64,000 nucleotides of DNA from Nitrosopumilus sp. Lineage in GTDB: Archaea; Thermoproteota; Nitrososphaeria; Nitrososphaerales; Nitrosopumilaceae. Below the pieces are notes generated by a model. That model was not told where the DNA came from. It saw only the letters and a list, made by a program, of their open reading frames with translations, and searched no databases. Shown one piece after another: positions 12,426 to 50,903 of the stretch; positions within the stretch are counted from its first letter, which is position 1, and each line of letters begins with the position of its first letter. Where the stretch lies: assembly GCA_029862745.1 (NCBI GenBank), contig JAOTWS010000001.1:124001-188000 (forward strand). Direction: 5' to 3'. The translations under genes were made by a program, and so were the position numbers.

Positions 12426-13247
12426 ATGCATTCAAATAGTTCCGCAAAAGACATGGCAAAAAAAGGACTAGACAATTTACTTTCAAACAAAAGCCAAAAT
12501 ATAGTAGATGTTATGTTGGGACGAGAGAATACACAGACAGTAAGCTCGGATATGCTTGTAGAGGAAGTCCAGAAAAGAGTATGGAATGCACTCAAACAAG
12601 ATCAACAGTACTCTGATGTTATCACTGATTCTGATAGATTTCTTCGCGATAATGTTTTTTCTAGTACAACAATGATTGTAATGTATGTGGATCTGGTAGG
12701 CTCCACACAGATGGTCATGGACCTTCCACAAAAACAATTGGCCATGATAGTAAGCTCATTTGCTCAGGAAATGGGATATGTTATAAAACAACATAATGGG
12801 TATATTCTAAAATACGTAGGAGATGCAGTAATAGGTTACTTTGCAGAAAAAGGAAGTGTTGCCAACATTGCAGACAGTTCAGTTAGTTGTGCAGAATCAA
12901 TGCTTAAAGTAGTAAAAACAGGAATTAATCCAGTTTTACAGCAATATGACTACCCTGATCTTGCCATAAAAATTGGAATTGATTTTGGGGAGAACACAAT
13001 CATTCGTTATGGGGATAATGAGGAAGAATCACACGTTGATCTCCTTGGACCTTCAATGAACATGGCGGCTAAAATACAGGGTCATGCTCAACCAGACCAG
13101 ATTCTAATAGGAGATCAAGTTTACAAAAAACTAGACTCTGCCATACAGGAATATTTTGAGCAAGTCAAATGGAAAGATAGTATCTGGAATTATAGAAATA
13201 AAGTTACTGGAAAAATATATCCAGTTTATGCATATGTTGGGAAATAG
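12426..13247 (+). CDS. Class III adenylyl cyclase (cyclase homology domain)
   Basis: Predicted to make cAMP from ATP in the cytoplasm. The cyclase homology domain spans about residues 78-272. Metal-binding Asp89 is in YVDLVGST and Asp133 in YVGDAVIGYF. Adenine-selecting Lys129 (ILKYVGD) and Asp205 (VDLLGPSMN) are both present, as is Asn212; the usual catalytic Arg is Lys216 (MAAK). The N-terminal 75 residues are a helical region without a named domain. There is no membrane segment. The stop is 7 bases before the HD-domain gene, so the two form an operon. The Arg-to-Lys change is conservative, so activity is likely. Confidence 0.88.
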   Translation: MHSNSSAKDMAKKGLDNLLSNKSQNIVDVMLGRENTQTVSSDMLVEEVQKRVWNALKQDQQYSDVITDSDRFLRDNVFSSTTMIVMYVDLVGSTQMVMDLPQKQLAMIVSSFAQEMGYVIKQHNGYILKYVGDAVIGYFAEKGSVANIADSSVSCAESMLKVVKTGINPVLQQYDYPDLAIKIGIDFGENTIIRYGDNEEESHVDLLGPSMNMAAKIQGHAQPDQILIGDQVYKKLDSAIQEYFEQVKWKDSIWNYRNKVTGKIYPVYAYVGK

Positions 13248-13254
13248 ATGGTGA

Positions 13255-14580
13255 GTGATTTTGTCGCTTACAAAAATACCTAGCACACAAGAACTGCGAG
13301 AAATAATTATTGAATTATTAAAAAAAGAAAACTTAGATGATGCATGTTACGTTGACATGCTAAACTATGCATTGGGATTATTTAATGAACAGAATCTAAA
13401 GAACAGGTATTATGGATACCACAATACTAGTCACGAGATGATAGTAACTTATAACACTCTTTTGGCATCAAGAGGAAAGGAATTTCATGGTACAGTGTCT
13501 AAAGAGGACTTTAAGCATCTGTTCACAGCATCACTGTTTCATGATTATGAACCAGGCAAAATAGAAGATAAACCTCATGAAGAGAGTGCAGCAAATTTTG
13601 TGACTCAAGATAAGAAACTCTTGAATTTGTTCAAAGAATCTGAAATTGATTCTCATCTTGTAGCATCATTAATCTTGCGAACATCCTATCCATGGAGTTT
13701 AAAAAAATCAGAGTATGAGCCCTTGATATTAAGCCATTTTGTACAATCAAAATATGCCCATAATAAAACAATGCAGGAACACTATGCCAATCTAGGATGG
13801 TTCATGTCGGTTGCGGACAGAATAGGTGCATACGCACTAGGAGATTTTTTGGATGCGATGGAACTTGCAAAAAAGAATGCACATTCGCTGGGATGGGGTT
13901 CTGAATACATAATACAAAGAAGCGTAACATACTTTGAGACACTGCTAAACGAAGAACAGGAGATGACAGATAAGGTGATGCGCTCAATTCCAAAATCAAT
14001 GCGCAAGACATTCATGAATAATGTTTTGGGATTTTTCAAACTTCGTGAAAAAGAACTAGAGGTACGAGCATCAATAGTATATGATGAAATTAAATTAACA
14101 ACAAATTTGGAAAAATGTGAATTTGATGACGAACAGGCAAACAGTTTGTTTGATATCTATGACGAACTTCCAGATCCTCTTCAGTTTAAGAAAAAAACAT
14201 TCTTTGAATCCCTTAAAGATCCAGAAACCATTCTAATTACATTGAGACTAGGATCCAATACTGGAGAGATATTGGGGTTTGCCAAAGGTGGGCCACTGGA
14301 GGGTTATGGGCTTCCAGATAGCATCAATGATACGAATTATGGAAAATCCAATACTGTTTTTTTGGAACCATTAGCACTAAAGATGGGATATTGGGGTCAG
14401 GGTGGAGGCTCACAAATGAGACAACACTTCAGGAAGATTGCAAAAGAAAAAGGCTATGATTTTCTAACCAGCTTACAATTGCGTGAGGTCATACAAAGAA
14501 GAATAGAAAGAAATGACAGTATAGAGTTTGTCCAGCAACTTAATCCTGAAAAACTAGACTATTACAGGGTAATTCTTTGA
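13255..14580 (+). CDS. HD-type cyclic-nucleotide phosphodiesterase-like domain fused to GNAT-like domain
   Basis: Residues 50-200 carry a class I phosphodiesterase-style HD core: YGYHNTSHEMIV (H56, H60), SLFHDYEPG (H96-D97) and SVADRIGAY (D188), matching the YHNxxHxxxV and HDxxHPG signature except that HPG is EPG. This would hydrolyse a cyclic nucleotide, plausibly the product of the upstream cyclase. Residues 325-441 resemble a GNAT acetyltransferase: ILGFAKGGPLEGYG, then VFLEPLALKMGYWGQGGGSQ, a candidate acetyl-CoA loop. A helical linker (225-320) joins them. GTG 13255 or TTG 13261 is the start, since the ATG at 13248 is out of frame. Both enzymatic calls are inference. Confidence 0.7.
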   Translation: MILSLTKIPSTQELREIIIELLKKENLDDACYVDMLNYALGLFNEQNLKNRYYGYHNTSHEMIVTYNTLLASRGKEFHGTVSKEDFKHLFTASLFHDYEPGKIEDKPHEESAANFVTQDKKLLNLFKESEIDSHLVASLILRTSYPWSLKKSEYEPLILSHFVQSKYAHNKTMQEHYANLGWFMSVADRIGAYALGDFLDAMELAKKNAHSLGWGSEYIIQRSVTYFETLLNEEQEMTDKVMRSIPKSMRKTFMNNVLGFFKLREKELEVRASIVYDEIKLTTNLEKCEFDDEQANSLFDIYDELPDPLQFKKKTFFESLKDPETILITLRLGSNTGEILGFAKGGPLEGYGLPDSINDTNYGKSNTVFLEPLALKMGYWGQGGGSQMRQHFRKIAKEKGYDFLTSLQLREVIQRRIERNDSIEFVQQLNPEKLDYYRVIL

Positions 14581-45486: not shown

Positions 45487-45579
45487 ATGAGTGTTATCTT
45501 TGTGTGCCATAACTGTGGAGAGCACATAGATATTCAAAGTATTGAAAAACATGTTAAAGAAATGCATTTTTATGAATAA
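45487..45579 (+). CDS. Mini C2H2 zinc finger protein, 30 aa
   Basis: MSVIFVCHNCGEHIDIQSIE then KHVKEMHFYE: C7-x2-C10-x11-H22-x4-H27 in only 30 residues, essentially a lone finger. The pattern is strong although the gene is tiny. Lies between hef and a cyclase gene. Target unknown. Confidence 0.55.
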   Translation: MSVIFVCHNCGEHIDIQSIEKHVKEMHFYE

Positions 45580-45673
45580 CGTTCATTTTTACAATTTATT
45601 TTAACTAGATTTAAAAATTATTACAACATTAGCTAATTAATCTATAAGTAATTTTTTAGGATAATATTATTTA

Positions 45674-46390
45674 ATGTATAGTAAACAAATAGAATTTAAA
45701 AATCTAATTAATTCAAAGGATTTTTTTGATTATTCAAAAAAGGTTAAATTTAGCCAAGAGTTAGCCCAGATACACCAGAAATCAGAAAACACAGATTCAA
45801 CTCCTTCGACATCGGATTATTTGATAGCATTTTCAACTCGGCCTCAAAAGTTTTGTGTAGGATATGTAGACATCATTAATTCAACAAAGATTTCTGCAAG
45901 TATTATACCAGAAAAGGTATCAACATACTACGAGATATTTTTAAATTCAATGGCTAAAATTGTTGGAATGTATGGCGGAAGGGTAATTAAAAATATTGGT
46001 GACTGTTTATTATTTTATTTTCCAAATTCAACCCAGTCATCAGAAAAAGGTATGAAAAATTGCTTACAATGCGGAACAAAAATGATAGAGGCTCAACCAA
46101 TCATTTCAAAAGTGATAAAATCAAAAAAACTTCCAAGTCTAAATTTTAGAATAAGTGCAGACTATGGATCAGTGGTCATTATGAATACAAACACTTCCGA
46201 TCAAATAGATTTAATCGGACCACCAGTAAATATGTGTGCCAAGATAAATCATTGTGCAGGATACAATGAATTCGTCATTGGTAGTGATTTAGTACAGTAT
46301 GTCAAAAAATTTGAAGAATACAAATTTCATGAGATAAAGAGTTGTAATATTGGGTTTAGACAATCATATCCTGTTTATCGTGTGAACTAA
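45674..46390 (+). CDS. Class III adenylyl cyclase-like protein, 238 aa
   Basis: Second cyclase homology domain of the window. Metal Asp66 (GYVDIINSTK) and Asp110 (KNIGDCLLFYF), Lys106, Asp179 (QIDLIGPPVN), Asn186 and Lys190 occupy the expected sites, the same set as the 12426 protein including Arg-to-Lys. About 55 N-terminal residues have no named domain. Soluble and probably cAMP-producing. TATA-like TCTATAAG near 45644 suggests a leaderless start at ATG 45674. Convergent with a FilR1-type regulator. Confidence 0.82.
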   Translation: MYSKQIEFKNLINSKDFFDYSKKVKFSQELAQIHQKSENTDSTPSTSDYLIAFSTRPQKFCVGYVDIINSTKISASIIPEKVSTYYEIFLNSMAKIVGMYGGRVIKNIGDCLLFYFPNSTQSSEKGMKNCLQCGTKMIEAQPIISKVIKSKKLPSLNFRISADYGSVVIMNTNTSDQIDLIGPPVNMCAKINHCAGYNEFVIGSDLVQYVKKFEEYKFHEIKSCNIGFRQSYPVYRVN

Positions 46391-46402
46391 CAAGATCATC
46401 AT

Positions 46403-47209
46403 TCATTCTTTTAATTTTGATTCTTGAAAACTTGTGGAATTCTTCCAGGATTCTTCAAAATAATCCAAACACCATTCCCTGAATTCCTCATCAACACTTG
46501 ATAGCATCTCACTAAGATCTGGATCTCCTTCTTTATTTTGGAAAAGTATTCCCGCCTCTTTGTCAGTAACCAGCAACCCTAAAATTTTTTTGCTATGCAT
46601 TTTTCTTTCAAGAACTCCTGCTATAACATATTTTTGAAATTGTTTTTTTTCAAAAATCTTTTTTCTGTCTTCTGAAATAATAGCATTTTCCAAAAATATT
46701 GATTTAATATAGATATTGTTCTGAAGTCTATCAGAAATAACATCAACAATATCATTAGAATATGGGACTTCAGATAAAATATTGTAAATAAACTTCTCAG
46801 AATTCTCATGGATTTTCTTCCATTGCTCTAATACCTTAACATAACCTTTAATTTTTTTGTGGTTTTGAAGAGACCCAATTCTTTGAATGAATTTTTTTTC
46901 GATATTTTCAAGCATGTGTGTATTAAAGAAATGCTTGTTATCAGAAAGAAAGGAAATGGAGGGAATTAATTTCAAGACTAATTGACCAAATGTTGTTAAT
47001 TCATAATTCCCATCAGGAATTTTAATGATTAATCCATTCTTAGATAATCTACCCACATTTCTATGAATTTCAGGGTTTGTAGCTTCAAGAAGTTTTGCTA
47101 ACTTTGAGATGTTAAGTTTTTTTTTGGATAAATTATTCAAAATATTCAATCGCTGTTCACTTGCCAATTCTAAAAAATCACTAGCAGTTTTTGTGGAATC
47201 CATATCCAC
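46403..47209 (-). CDS. ArsR-like HTH regulator with FilR1-type middle domain, 268 aa
   Basis: Residues 10-80 form a winged helix (ASEQRLNILNNLSKKKLNIS, PEIHRNVGRLSKNGLII). Residues 100-240 match the FilR1-like domain of archaeal regulators (helical region, then KKILGLLVTDKEAGILFQNK). FilR1 proteins control motility or methanogenesis genes elsewhere; this one is flanked by two cyclase genes, so it may regulate them. Ligand unknown. Confidence 0.78.
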   Translation of the reverse strand: MDMDSTKTASDFLELASEQRLNILNNLSKKKLNISKLAKLLEATNPEIHRNVGRLSKNGLIIKIPDGNYELTTFGQLVLKLIPSISFLSDNKHFFNTHMLENIEKKFIQRIGSLQNHKKIKGYVKVLEQWKKIHENSEKFIYNILSEVPYSNDIVDVISDRLQNNIYIKSIFLENAIISEDRKKIFEKKQFQKYVIAGVLERKMHSKKILGLLVTDKEAGILFQNKEGDPDLSEMLSSVDEEFREWCLDYFEESWKNSTSFQESKLKE

Positions 47210-47251
47210 TAAAAAATTAATCTGATACTATCTAAGGTTTCTTAAAAAAAT

Positions 47252-47377
47252 CTAGGATTCGGGCCAATTTCCACCACAATTTAAACAAACACCTCTTAAT
47301 CCATTGTATCTTTTAACTTCAACTATAGTTGCTTGTGAATTACATGCCAAACATACTATAGAATTATCAACGCTCAT
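47252..47377 (-). CDS. Mini zinc-ribbon protein, 41 aa
   Basis: Four-Cys ribbon C9-x2-C12 (CLAC) and C31-x2-C34 (CLNCGGNW). The ribbon fills the protein. Lies upstream of the FilR1-type gene on the same strand; divergent from the third cyclase gene, with about 108 bases between starts. No named family. Confidence 0.55.
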   Translation of the reverse strand: MSVDNSIVCLACNSQATIVEVKRYNGLRGVCLNCGGNWPES

Positions 47378-47485
47378 ACTTACTACCAGCATCTCAAAGT
47401 TATTAACTAATATTCAAAAAGATGCTAATTTATTTGAATTCTAGCTAATTATCACATATTTAATCAAATATCTAAAATCTAATAA

Positions 47486-48688
47486 ATGAATTATTATTAC
47501 AAAACATTCTTGAGTACAGAAATTCCAAATGATCTTATTTATGCATCATTTTTTTTCATTGATATTGTGGGATTATCAAACCCAATTTTATCTACTGAAA
47601 CACAACGAACAAAAATCAAAATCCTAAATGAGTTAATATATGATTGCAACACTTTTGTTGAAACCCCTAAAAATAATCTACTGATACTACCTACAGGAGA
47701 TGGGATGTTAATAGGGTTCAAAAATGGGTTGGAGCAACCTCTAAAGTTATCAATAGAATTTCATAAAAAATTGTCAATTTACAACAAGAATGCAACTGGT
47801 TCTGAAAAAATTAAAACGCGTATTGGTTGTCACATAGGCCATGTTTTTGTTGTTCGTGACATTTATGGGAATGTTAACTTGTGGGGACCTGGGGCTATTT
47901 TATCTAGACGGATAATGGACATGGGAGATACGGATCATATTTTATTAAGTAATGAAATTGTTGAAGATTTATTTGAAATTTCAGATGATTATAAAAAATT
48001 CATCCACCTTCTTCATAATTTTGGAATAAAACATGGGGATAATTTATTAATTTATTCAGCATATGGAGAAGGATTTGGAAATTCATCATTGCCAAAAGAA
48101 AAAATAAAAATAAAAACCAAAGATGTAGATATTGAAAGTAATACAATTTGTGACAGGATTGTATTTGATGTTATCCCTAAAGACACCACTGGAATGACAA
48201 GGTTTAGAAGAACGTATTATTTTTTAAACCAATCGTCTGAACCAGTATATGAATTTGCGACAAATTTCATAGCAAATTCTAAAGAAGAATTACTAGGGTT
48301 AAATTTTAAAGCCTATGATGAAAAAGATAATGAATTAAAGATTTCAAAAGTTTTAGCCTCAACACCATATTCTAAAAAAATTATTATAAAATTACTAAAA
48401 CCAATTTTCAGGGGAGATTCTGGAAAATTATTAATAATTTACGACATAAAACTGACAAAAAATAACTTTGAAAACATTTTTACAACAGATGCTCAAAGTT
48501 TTGAGATTAATTTTAAACATTATGCTAACATTGAATTTTTCCCAGTATTATATTATATGGATGCCGAAATTGGAAGTAAGGATATAATTGAAAAATCTTC
48601 AGAAATAAGAAAAGGAATGTTCAAAGAACTTATGTGGAGTAGATCACATGGACTCAAAATTAAGGATAGTATTCGTTTAGAGTGGTGA
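47486..48688 (+). CDS. Divergent class III cyclase homologue with unknown C-terminal domain, 400 aa
   Basis: Residues 18-200 are a cyclase homology domain: Asp26 (FFFIDIVGL) and Asp72 (LPTGDGMLIGF) keep the two metal ligands. The adenine-selecting Lys is Leu68, the Asp is Asn131 (VNLWGPG), and Asn is Ile138, while Arg142 is kept, so an altered substrate or loss of activity is possible. Residues about 215-400 form a beta-rich domain (YYFLNQSSEPVYEFATNFIA, FRGDSGKLLIIYDIKLTKNN) that I cannot name. TATA-like CATATTTAATC about 26 bases before ATG 47486 suggests a leaderless mRNA. Confidence 0.72.
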   Translation: MNYYYKTFLSTEIPNDLIYASFFFIDIVGLSNPILSTETQRTKIKILNELIYDCNTFVETPKNNLLILPTGDGMLIGFKNGLEQPLKLSIEFHKKLSIYNKNATGSEKIKTRIGCHIGHVFVVRDIYGNVNLWGPGAILSRRIMDMGDTDHILLSNEIVEDLFEISDDYKKFIHLLHNFGIKHGDNLLIYSAYGEGFGNSSLPKEKIKIKTKDVDIESNTICDRIVFDVIPKDTTGMTRFRRTYYFLNQSSEPVYEFATNFIANSKEELLGLNFKAYDEKDNELKISKVLASTPYSKKIIIKLLKPIFRGDSGKLLIIYDIKLTKNNFENIFTTDAQSFEINFKHYANIEFFPVLYYMDAEIGSKDIIEKSSEIRKGMFKELMWSRSHGLKIKDSIRLEW

Positions 48689-48697
48689 TTTTTTAAA

Positions 48698-49414
48698 TTA
48701 AATATCCAATGGACCTATAATCATTCTAAATTGTTTATCATTTGAGATAATTTTAAAATCTTCATCCAATCGTAATTTTTCTTTGTTGTTTGGTTCAATT
48801 GTACAAATTCTTTGCAAAATTTTAAATGATTTATCTGTATTGCCTGCATAAAGCTCTGCTTTAGCTAGTTGATACAGAATTTTTGTATTATCTTTATTTG
48901 ATTCCAATATAGAATTAAAACAAGATATTGCATTTTCAAATTTTTTTAATTTGAATAATACCATTCCACGTAGATGCCAGTATTTTTCACCTAAAGGATG
49001 CTCTTGTTTCACCTTATCAGAATAGACTATAGCCTCTTCAAATTTATGAACATTTTTCATCTGTTCAACTTTGTGAATATTTTTTAAAATTTGGCTGTTG
49101 TGTACTTCAGATGCCTTATTCAAACATTCTAGGGATTTGTCATACATACTTAATTCAAAGAGAATTTGTCCCAAAAGAAAAAATGAGTTATAATTTTTTG
49201 GATTAGATTCTAATTCTTTAAACAATGCATCTTTTGCCTGATCATACTCCCCAATTTCATAAAGATATTGAGCTTTTTTGTACCAATAATCTTCAGATTT
49301 TTCAGATTTTGTTATTTCTTTCAATTTATCAAAAATCTCAACAGCCTCTTCAAATCGTCGTTCTTTTTTTAATTCTGCAGCCTTAGATTTCCAATGTTCT
49401 TTTGGATTAACCAT
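48698..49414 (-). CDS. TPR-repeat protein, 238 aa
   Basis: Five or more tetratricopeptide repeats: W-x-K-A near the start (KEHWKSKAAELKKERRFEEA), DYWYKKAQYLYEIGEYDQAK, NSFFLLGQILFELSMYDKSL, KYWHLRGMVLFKLKKFENAI and ILYQLAKAELYAGNTDKSFK. Repeat scaffold for protein contacts. Cytoplasmic. Convergent with the divergent cyclase (9 bases apart), which suggests, but does not show, a shared pathway. Confidence 0.85.
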   Translation of the reverse strand: MVNPKEHWKSKAAELKKERRFEEAVEIFDKLKEITKSEKSEDYWYKKAQYLYEIGEYDQAKDALFKELESNPKNYNSFFLLGQILFELSMYDKSLECLNKASEVHNSQILKNIHKVEQMKNVHKFEEAIVYSDKVKQEHPLGEKYWHLRGMVLFKLKKFENAISCFNSILESNKDNTKILYQLAKAELYAGNTDKSFKILQRICTIEPNNKEKLRLDEDFKIISNDKQFRMIIGPLDI

Positions 49415-49485
49415 GCTTAATTATAGAACAATTTTTAAAAAATGTTTTTGTATATGCTTTTAAGATATGTATGAAAATTTAATGC

Positions 49486-50256
49486 GTGTCTAAATCCATG
49501 CATATATTTACGAAGAATGAGATTGGGTTAAAAGCACTGATAATAATAGCTGCTATAGGTATCGGATATCAAATTTATCTGGATAATTTTGTAGATGTGG
49601 ATCAGATTTCATTTGCTCATTTTTCATACGGAATTAGTTCACTCGCAGTAGGTGTTGTTGCAATGCTTGTGGCAAGACGTTACAAGGGTTCTCCAGTATT
49701 TGGAAAAACATACCTTGCTTTAGCATTAGGTTTTATCATATTGTTTGCAGGGGATTTGATTTACAATTATTATGTAATAGTTCTAGATGAAGACCCTTAC
49801 CCTTCCATAGCTGATGTGTTTTTTTTAGTATTTTACTTGTTCACTGGATACCATCTTGTAAAAAATATAAAATATTTCAAAAAGAATTTGAGTGTCACTT
49901 CAAAAATTGGAATTCCTGTATTGGCATTAGTTATGATTATTTTATTTGGGTTATTTACAATTGAAACTTTAAACGAATACCCCCGAGTCTTTTTTATGGG
50001 AATTCTTTATGTTTCAGCTTCTGCAGCCATACTATCACTTGCAATATTTGGTGTGACAATTTTTCGTAACAGTGTTTTGGGCATTGCGTGGTTTATGTTG
50101 GTTGTTGGAATATTCTTTTATGCAGTTGCAGATGTTTGGTATTATTATCTTGAAGAAGTTGAAGAATTTACAATAACACATCCAGTCAACACATTATGGC
50201 TAATATCAGATATGTTTATTATATATGCATTATACAAACATAAGAAAATTATTTAG
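49486..50256 (+). CDS. Seven- or eight-helix membrane sensor-like protein, 256 aa, GTG start
   Basis: Seven or eight membrane helices in a regular series. The loop VLDEDPYPSIADVFFLVFYL resembles the PYPSLADV motif seen in bacterial membrane sensor modules fused to GGDEF or kinase domains, but here the module stands alone. GTG 49486 has a TATA-like CTTTTAAGAT about 26 bases before. It sits in the cyclase island and might act as a receptor with an unlinked partner. Ligand unknown. Confidence 0.68.
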   Translation: MSKSMHIFTKNEIGLKALIIIAAIGIGYQIYLDNFVDVDQISFAHFSYGISSLAVGVVAMLVARRYKGSPVFGKTYLALALGFIILFAGDLIYNYYVIVLDEDPYPSIADVFFLVFYLFTGYHLVKNIKYFKKNLSVTSKIGIPVLALVMIILFGLFTIETLNEYPRVFFMGILYVSASAAILSLAIFGVTIFRNSVLGIAWFMLVVGIFFYAVADVWYYYLEEVEEFTITHPVNTLWLISDMFIIYALYKHKKII

Positions 50257-50294
50257 TTTGAAACAAATTCTACTTCAGACTATTCTTCTAAATA

Positions 50295-50903
50295 TTATAA
50301 CCTAAGATACCCCAATTTTGGAATCTTGCTTGTAAAATCACGCTGTAGTAATATTATTTCATTTGTTTTTTTAAATCGAATTAATTTTTCATTAGTTTCC
50401 TCCAAGAATAATTTTATTTGTGTAAAACAATTTGTTAACTCTTTTTTTAGTTTACCATCACCGCTATTCTCTTTAATTCTAAGAATAGATGATGATAATT
50501 CAAACATGCCAGACATTCCTTCAAGTAGCAATTCATAATCATTCTTTGTGAATTTATTTAATTTGAAGGAATTAAGATTCTTGGATATATCTACAAATAT
50601 GTTCCTATTTTCAAGTTTTTTTAATGCATTATTAATTTTGGACTCATACGTGAAAATCAAGTTATTGGTAAATCCAATGATATCTTCAAATGTTTGCAGG
50701 GGTATTTTTTTATAATATGCATCATTCTTGTGACCACATTTTTTGATGTACCCCAAGGTCTCCATTTTTTCCAGAGCATTTCTAAACTTGACTCTATTGT
50801 ATCGTTTTTTGTTAGCATCTACACATCTTTCCCACACATCGCCAAAATAATTTTTTTCTTCAGACATACAATTCAAAATATCATCTATTGATATCATTTG
50901 CAT
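50295..50903 (-). CDS. Hypothetical protein with winged-helix-like start, 202 aa
   Basis: Residues 1-70 look like a winged helix (KKRYNRVKFRNALEKMETLG, YIKKCGHKNDAYYKKIP). The rest is a helical bundle (LLEGMSGMFELSSSILRIKE, FTQIKLFLEETNEKLIRFKK). It could be a regulator of the neighbouring signalling genes. No catalytic motif. Start ATG 50903 or 50897. Confidence 0.58.
   Translation of the reverse strand: MQMISIDDILNCMSEEKNYFGDVWERCVDANKKRYNRVKFRNALEKMETLGYIKKCGHKNDAYYKKIPLQTFEDIIGFTNNLIFTYESKINNALKKLENRNIFVDISKNLNSFKLNKFTKNDYELLLEGMSGMFELSSSILRIKENSGDGKLKKELTNCFTQIKLFLEETNEKLIRFKKTNEIILLQRDFTSKIPKLGYLRL

Follow-up and report, generated by a model that had tools for sequence, protein, structure and literature searches.

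The closest described relatives of the locus analyzed here are the class III adenylate and guanylate cyclases, the archaeal regulator FilR1, bacterial cyclic AMP (cAMP)–CRP circuits and the anti-virus system Pycsar. The locus occupies positions 45,674–50,903 of a 64,000-nucleotide stretch of Nitrosopumilus sp. DNA, hereafter the window (GenBank assembly GCA_029862745.1, contig JAOTWS010000001.1, positions 124,001 to 188,000, forward strand), and its core consists of two class III cyclases (P1 and P3), a FilR1-type regulator (P2) and a mini zinc ribbon (ZNR). Both P1 and P3 pass the curated Pfam cut-off and retain the metal-binding Asp residues of class III cyclases, with CyaB (3r5g) as the nearest solved sequence for P1; unlike typical members, P1-type enzymes carry Lys in place of Arg, and P3 has Leu and Asn at the base-selecting positions and a putative fused Ost1/M1-like beta domain. 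FilR1 of Methanosaeta harundinacea has a helix-turn-helix (HTH)–DUF1724–receiver (REC) architecture and sits with a histidine kinase, according to the available sections of PMC5847659. P2 likewise has a winged helix and a FilR1_middle/DUF1724 domain, but lacks the receiver domain and sits with cyclases and a zinc ribbon. Like cAMP–CRP circuits, the locus combines a cyclase with a regulator, a spaced-repeat operator and presumed autoregulation, whereas no CNB domain was detected in 101 genomes of the family, and P2 belongs to another regulator family. With Pycsar it shares a class III cyclase that some Pycsar models match, but no CNB, TIR or transmembrane-pore effector was seen in the island, and the operator points to gene control.

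We find that P1, ZNR-P2 and P3 form a real, co-conserved and probably autoregulated unit, in which known families occur in a combination that we did not find described; a search of the open-access literature, which leaves most subscription papers outside its scope, returned no such module, operator or receptor. On balance, we favor the view that this core is an autoregulated cyclic-nucleotide signaling circuit. Thaumarchaeal class III cyclases have been described as enriched in sponge symbionts in the available part of PMC9289680, and they appear in an acidophile's gene list in that of PMC4836417. The window's genome encodes nine or ten of them, yet its family has no detected CNB receptor, which places the targets of their cyclic nucleotides in question. 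For the question of what these nucleotides act on, the module offers candidates that can be named: a regulator, a mini-protein that goes with it, and a DNA site.

Linkage of the core genes across Nitrosopumilaceae

The survey covered 151 Nitrosopumilaceae genomes, with 150 listed matches counted for each of P1 and P2 and 69 for P3, the last number leaving out one weak row from the window's genome (C4:72701, 25% identity). P3 is present in 50 of the 151 genomes and in 12 of 22 genera. The partners that recur around P3 and its relatives are a P1-type cyclase and P2, joined by P4 and P5 in near relatives. Within a 6-kb radius of the 69 P3 matches, both P1 and P2 were found in 27 cases, P2 only in eight and P1 only in two, among the P1 and P2 matches listed. 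Counted from the regulator, 45 of the 150 listed P2 matches have P1 or P3 no more than 6 kb away. Uniform placement in 1.65-Mb genomes would give 2.8, though related genomes are not independent. P1–P2 pairs occur in at least 34 of the 151 genomes, and the 36 loci with both genes display 16 gene orders and orientations; the genes have thus stayed linked while their arrangement changed repeatedly. In a tree of 60 P2 proteins, cyclase linkage required seven changes versus 16.5 in shuffles, with linkage in several deep clades. The P2 tree thus contains several old linked clades rather than one recent cassette. Its labels were set per locus; both P2 genes of L083 count as linked, and L106 was called unlinked though it lies within 6 kb of a module.

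The initial annotation had described a single 5.2-kb signaling island and proposed a gene-neighborhood comparison, which finds the core genes clustered, not scattered, in many Nitrosopumilaceae. The island therefore holds for P1, ZNR, P2 and P3; P4 and P5, however, accompany P3 only in near relatives, and P6 falls outside the unit. No P2 was found in viral contigs, and a plasmid search returned no P5 and one weak match to P3. Twelve stretches around matches were fetched by choice out of many. The P2 next to P3 at one locus (L043, genome G129) falls into two reading frames and is probably a broken copy.

ZNR lies directly upstream of P2

In a motif scan, most module loci had ZNR copies, and the window had one. 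Across the 151 genomes, and among the matches listed, 41 ZNR matches lie within 1.5 kb of P2, of which 34 are on the same strand and directly upstream, mostly 41–66 bp away. ZNR was present within 1.5 kb of 34 of the 45 cyclase-linked P2 genes versus 7 of the 105 others (odds ratio 43, among P2 matches listed). ZNR is thus a core member of the module, and its place just ahead of P2 is operon-like. At L140:4414-4866, ZNR forms the C-terminus of a 150-amino-acid protein with an ArsR-type HTH front, a fusion which suggests that ZNR and the winged helix act together. Some other ZNR matches also lie inside frames of ~150 amino acids.

The second ZNR of the window's genome (L130:4103-6764, contig C4) is followed by a FilR-like gene and then by a P3-like cyclase, which overlaps the FilR-like gene by 4 bp and carries a hydrophobic, probably transmembrane segment and a further domain. 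This row is a second, distant version of the module. In the window itself, a 30-amino-acid mini zinc finger frame (CxxC...HxxxxxH-like; 45487-45579, forward strand) is located upstream of P1, and a similar frame lies upstream of P1 at L038.

A 20-bp-spaced direct repeat precedes the core genes

Among palindromic 8-mers in the regions ahead of P1, ZNR and P3 genes, TTAGCTAA showed the strongest enrichment (28 of 113 regions, 1.5 expected). The spacing of AGCT pairs peaks sharply at 20 bp (48 pairs; next best 7), or about two helical turns, and the resulting consensus, AGCTAA-N14-AGCTAA, is a 20-bp direct repeat ahead of P1, ZNR-P2 and P3. It is positioned near −62/−42 of P1 and, in reverse orientation, near −93/−73 of ZNR, such that two divergent genes often share a single site. 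The pattern AGCT-N16-AGCT was found upstream of 18 of 38 P1, 24 of 38 ZNR and 6 of 37 P3 genes, compared with 0.19, 0.13 and 0.12, respectively, in shuffles and with 8 of 351 among the remaining genes of these loci; divergent intergenic regions may count for both genes in these tallies. At the L038–L040 and L046 loci of four near relatives, two AGCT sites 28 bp apart occupy the place of the P1 operator.

Genome-wide, the exact form AGCTAA-N4-TT-N8-AGCTAA occurs at 75 sites in the 151 genomes versus three for the reversed pattern, and 53 of the 75 have a module gene within 3 kb, where uniform placement predicts at most 2.2. At least one exact site was present in 28 of the 39 genomes having a P2–cyclase module versus 9 of the 112 without one (module genes among the matches listed). 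A target survey examined 17 regions covering 18 of the 22 outside-module sites, together with three regions near modules. Where sites lie beyond modules or at module edges, the genes close to them encode MEDS, NitrOD5-like, AsnC-ligand-domain, small winged-helix-like and secreted or surface proteins. The NitrOD5 match at one site-linked protein was weak (16.9 bits versus 27), and some sites lack a plausible gene, two of them being separated by 430–480 bp from the closest start found. MEDS and NitrOD are listed among thaumarchaeal signaling domains in the available part of a census of archaeal two-component systems (PMC5847659). Site-neighbor tallies used 141 listed rows, from which palindromic repeats on the opposite strand were dropped. 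A sigma-70 promoter scan (46 versus 39 in shuffles) is not informative for archaea and was set aside.

P2 as candidate binder and candidate receptor

P2 consists of an ArsR-like winged helix and a FilR1_middle domain. Within its family, FilR1_middle was matched in 15 of 21 members and HVO_A0261_N in 20 of 21 (E ≤ 0.01), and domain scans of P2 and family members gave no match to a receiver domain. Searching the PDB with the P2 profile yielded only N-terminal HTH-region matches among the best 60 of 81, and no solved relative of FilR1_middle by sequence. Of the 105 cyclase-free P2 matches listed, five (including one at a contig end) lie no more than 1 kb from a site, against 0.2 expected by uniform placement, which points to P2 as the binder.

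We propose that P2, probably with ZNR, would bind the 20-bp-spaced repeat as an activator or repressor and would thereby control its own gene and both cyclases, with the MEDS, NitrOD5-like, AsnC-type and surface-protein genes as putative further targets in some relatives. The initial annotation had suggested a cyclic-nucleotide response locus. A co-conserved signaling locus is indeed present, but the unit has the form of a transcriptional circuit with a shared operator and not of an effector system, and its response to a nucleotide is still putative.

The CNB domain (PF00027) was found in none of the 101 family genomes searched, while 10 of 14 control genomes were positive. Together with co-location, this makes P2 the leading candidate receptor, by location only. 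That its FilR1_middle domain binds the cyclase product in place of a CRP/CNB receptor is the least sure step, and we put it forward tentatively. If P2 does respond to the product, it would represent a new receptor class within a kind of archaeal regulator. It seems doubtful that all parts of a more ambitious proposal hold, namely that ammonia-oxidizing archaea run a CRP-independent system with FilR1_middle as receptor, help from ZNR, AGCTAA-N14-AGCTAA operators, and a second cyclase of new specificity with an Ost1/M1-like sensor.

Several observations weigh against an autoregulated cyclic-nucleotide circuit. Neither P1 nor P2 was near 32 of the 69 P3 matches, among the matches listed, some of these being at contig ends. 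In all 27 P1-type enzymes Lys stands in place of the usual catalytic Arg, a position seen in the CyaB alignment. The operator counts are post hoc, as the pattern was first seen in the same loci, and the fairer comparison is that of 22 outside-module sites versus three controls. In the window's genome the operator is degenerate, the P1 site more so than the P3/ZNR site, and a regulon search there with one mismatch allowed gave eight sites versus seven control sites, none beyond the module. Furthermore, six ZNR genes with no P1, P2 or P3 nearby have a site 42–64 bp away, among the sites listed. The binder need therefore not be P2, and ZNR or another factor could take this role.

It is also possible, if somewhat improbable, that the ligand of P2/ZNR is a different one and that P2/ZNR acts on the cyclases solely at the level of their transcription. 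The cyclases would then be outputs of P2 rather than its input, and the nucleotide would act elsewhere, for example on MEDS proteins, KaiC-like proteins or kinases. Such an arrangement is consistent with the operator lying ahead of the cyclase genes, with orphan P2 paralogues and ZNR genes having sites without a nearby cyclase, and with MEDS genes that bear sites and adjoin P3. By itself it does not explain why two dissimilar cyclases have stayed with P2 through many rearrangements, though co-regulation could.

Cyclase residues and the architecture of P3

P1 and P3 share only 20% identity over 101 aligned positions (E 0.087). Class III cyclases are known to depend on metal-binding Asp residues, an adenine-selecting Lys and Asp, and a catalytic Asn and Arg. 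P1 has the metal Asp pair (66 and 110), an adenine-type Lys106 and Asp179, Asn186, and Lys190 replacing the usual Arg, and all six residues are identical in 27 of 27 aligned P1-type proteins. In the autoregulated circuit, P1 would make a cyclic nucleotide, most likely cAMP because the adenine-type Lys/Asp pair is kept. All 29 aligned P3 proteins share Asp26, Asp72, Arg142 and Lys182. Alignment to Ma1120 places Leu68 and Asn131 of P3 at the base-selecting Lys and Asp, leaving P3 without the adenine pair. At the catalytic Asn and Arg, P1 thus keeps Asn with Lys for Arg, while P3 keeps Arg without Asn. Since published pyrimidine cyclases use other residues, according to the available part of PMC11224242, substrate specificity is not readable from these residues.

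The C-terminal half of P3 is predicted, at low confidence, to resemble the beta domain of Ost1 and M1 aminopeptidases. A model of residues 214–400 (mean pLDDT, its predicted local confidence, only 51.6) aligned with Ost1 (8agb_E; VIA Z 12.1, root-mean-square deviation 3.5, 157 aligned) and with ERAP1 (Z 11.1, root-mean-square deviation 5.1, 163 aligned). Ribophorin_I matched the beta region in 5 of 29 members (best E 2.9e-4), below the cut-off in the three with scores shown, and a PDB sequence search with the beta-domain profile gave no match. A cyclase fused to such a domain would be an unusual architecture.

In another family of the same order, P3-type domains are joined to a KaiC-like ATPase (PF06745 in L132, the one scanned) and other parts, and the P3-type cyclase thus behaves like a modular signaling domain. 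At L132, L133, L135 and L136 it lies C-terminal to a P-loop ATPase-like part, and at L134 the front is MG2/Ig-like. P3-type domains were also found in 33 viral-contig loci (L142–L174), and the 15 proteins examined all have ankyrin repeats in front of the cyclase domain and all keep an Asn. These copies indicate that the P3 cyclase domain is part of a wider subfamily, not unique to archaea.

P3 may have one of two roles, that of a cyclase with a different substrate range or that of a regulatory partner, and its Ost1/M1-like domain would tune it in either case. An alternative is that P3 is catalytically dead and serves as the regulatory half of a pseudo-heterodimer with P1, its beta domain sensing or anchoring. 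The missing Lys/Asp base pair and Asn fit this idea, as does the presence of P1 and P2 beside 27 of the 69 P3 matches. We nevertheless regard it as unlikely, as the invariant metal Asp pair, Arg and Lys suggest selection for chemistry, and some P3-type domains are fused to other parts at loci where no P1 was seen.

A Pycsar-type anti-virus system is highly improbable. P1 does match PADLOC PycC models (best E 3e-19), but these models score class III domains generally, and the cyclase at 12426 in the window scores higher (E 5e-29). The scan covered nine proteins, among them all six main island proteins though not ZNR, and PADLOC gave no effector match for any of them, in agreement with the initial annotation, which had seen no typical effector (TIR or nuclease). 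No CNB domain was found in the 101 family genomes, and the presence of common upstream sites speaks for control at the level of transcription. Apart from PycC, PADLOC returned only a TPR model for P4 and HTH-bearing models (e.g., Csa3, CARF) for P2, and the defense reading was dropped. Although cyclases and FilR-like regulators are abundant in the family, and the 1.81-Mb genome of the window alone has nine PF00211 matches and one more P3-like protein via profile search, the linkage of P1, P2 and P3 genes is far above chance (45 observed versus 2.8 expected, among P2 matches listed) and comes with a shared operator, which leaves a chance grouping of common gene families with negligible probability.

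Accessory and neighboring genes

Each of the seven reading frames assigned to the island by the initial annotation was located at its place, and their coordinates are collected with those of the operators in Table 1.

Table 1. Coordinates of genes, domain and operators in the window
Feature	Coordinates	Strand	Details
P1, class III cyclase	45674..46390	+	238 amino acids; PF00211 38.8 bits, cut-off 21.9
P2, FilR1-type HTH regulator	46403..47209	-	HVO_A0261_N 37.4 bits and FilR1_middle 28.5 bits, both above cut-off
ZNR, zinc ribbon	47252..47377	-	41-amino-acid open reading frame; C-terminus NWPES; ~45 bp upstream of P2, same strand
P3, divergent class III cyclase	47486..48688	+	PF00211 24.7 bits, cut-off 21.9
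P3 residues 214-400, putative Ost1/ribophorin I and M1-aminopeptidase N-domain-like beta domain	48125..48685	+	Low-confidence model; Pfam matches below cut-off
P4, TPR protein, accessory	48698..49414	-	Convergent with P3
P5, membrane protein, accessory	49486..50256	+	8 helices in model; DEDPYPSIADV loop
P6, winged-helix-like protein	50295..50903	-	Open reading frame and domain scan
Degenerate operator before P1	45603..45636	+	AACTAG at 45603; TTAGCTAA at 45629-45636; AGCT 43 bp before P1 start
ZNR-P2/P3 intergenic operator TGCTAA-N14-AGCTAA	47423..47448	+	One mismatch to AGCTAA-N14-AGCTAA; ZNR-P2 and P3 divergent

The P5 matches of at least 51% identity (n = 8) all lie within 1 kb of P3. Distant P5 relatives include frames of ~600 amino acids, and in the one scanned (L091:802-2601), a histidine kinase, a P5-like membrane domain is followed by HisKA and HATPase_c, which makes P5 plausibly a stand-alone membrane sensor. 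A fold assignment for P5 was not used, Foldseek giving no PDB match at E ≤ 0.001 (best, proteorhodopsin at 0.12). P6 was rejected as a module member; it occurs in 17 of the 151 genomes, all of one genus, and lies far from the module in one genome that also has it (G074). A ~186-amino-acid, single-transmembrane, beta-looking protein often adjoins P3 in convergent orientation (L047, L050, L054, L056, L057, L064, L065, L067 and others), and the one scanned matched no Pfam family.

Elsewhere in the window, the cyclase at 12426 also passes PF00211, in agreement with the initial count of three cyclase homologues within 36 kb; it belongs to a pair (12426-14580) whose second member lies 7 bp downstream and encodes a protein matching a GNAT acetyltransferase. 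In the same genome, the cyclases at L033 and L034 lie near small proteins that we take to be roadblock-like. A 588-amino-acid membrane sensor-cyclase (L036:2772-4538), whose cyclase part resembles P1 (39%), presumably includes a HAMP-like stretch.

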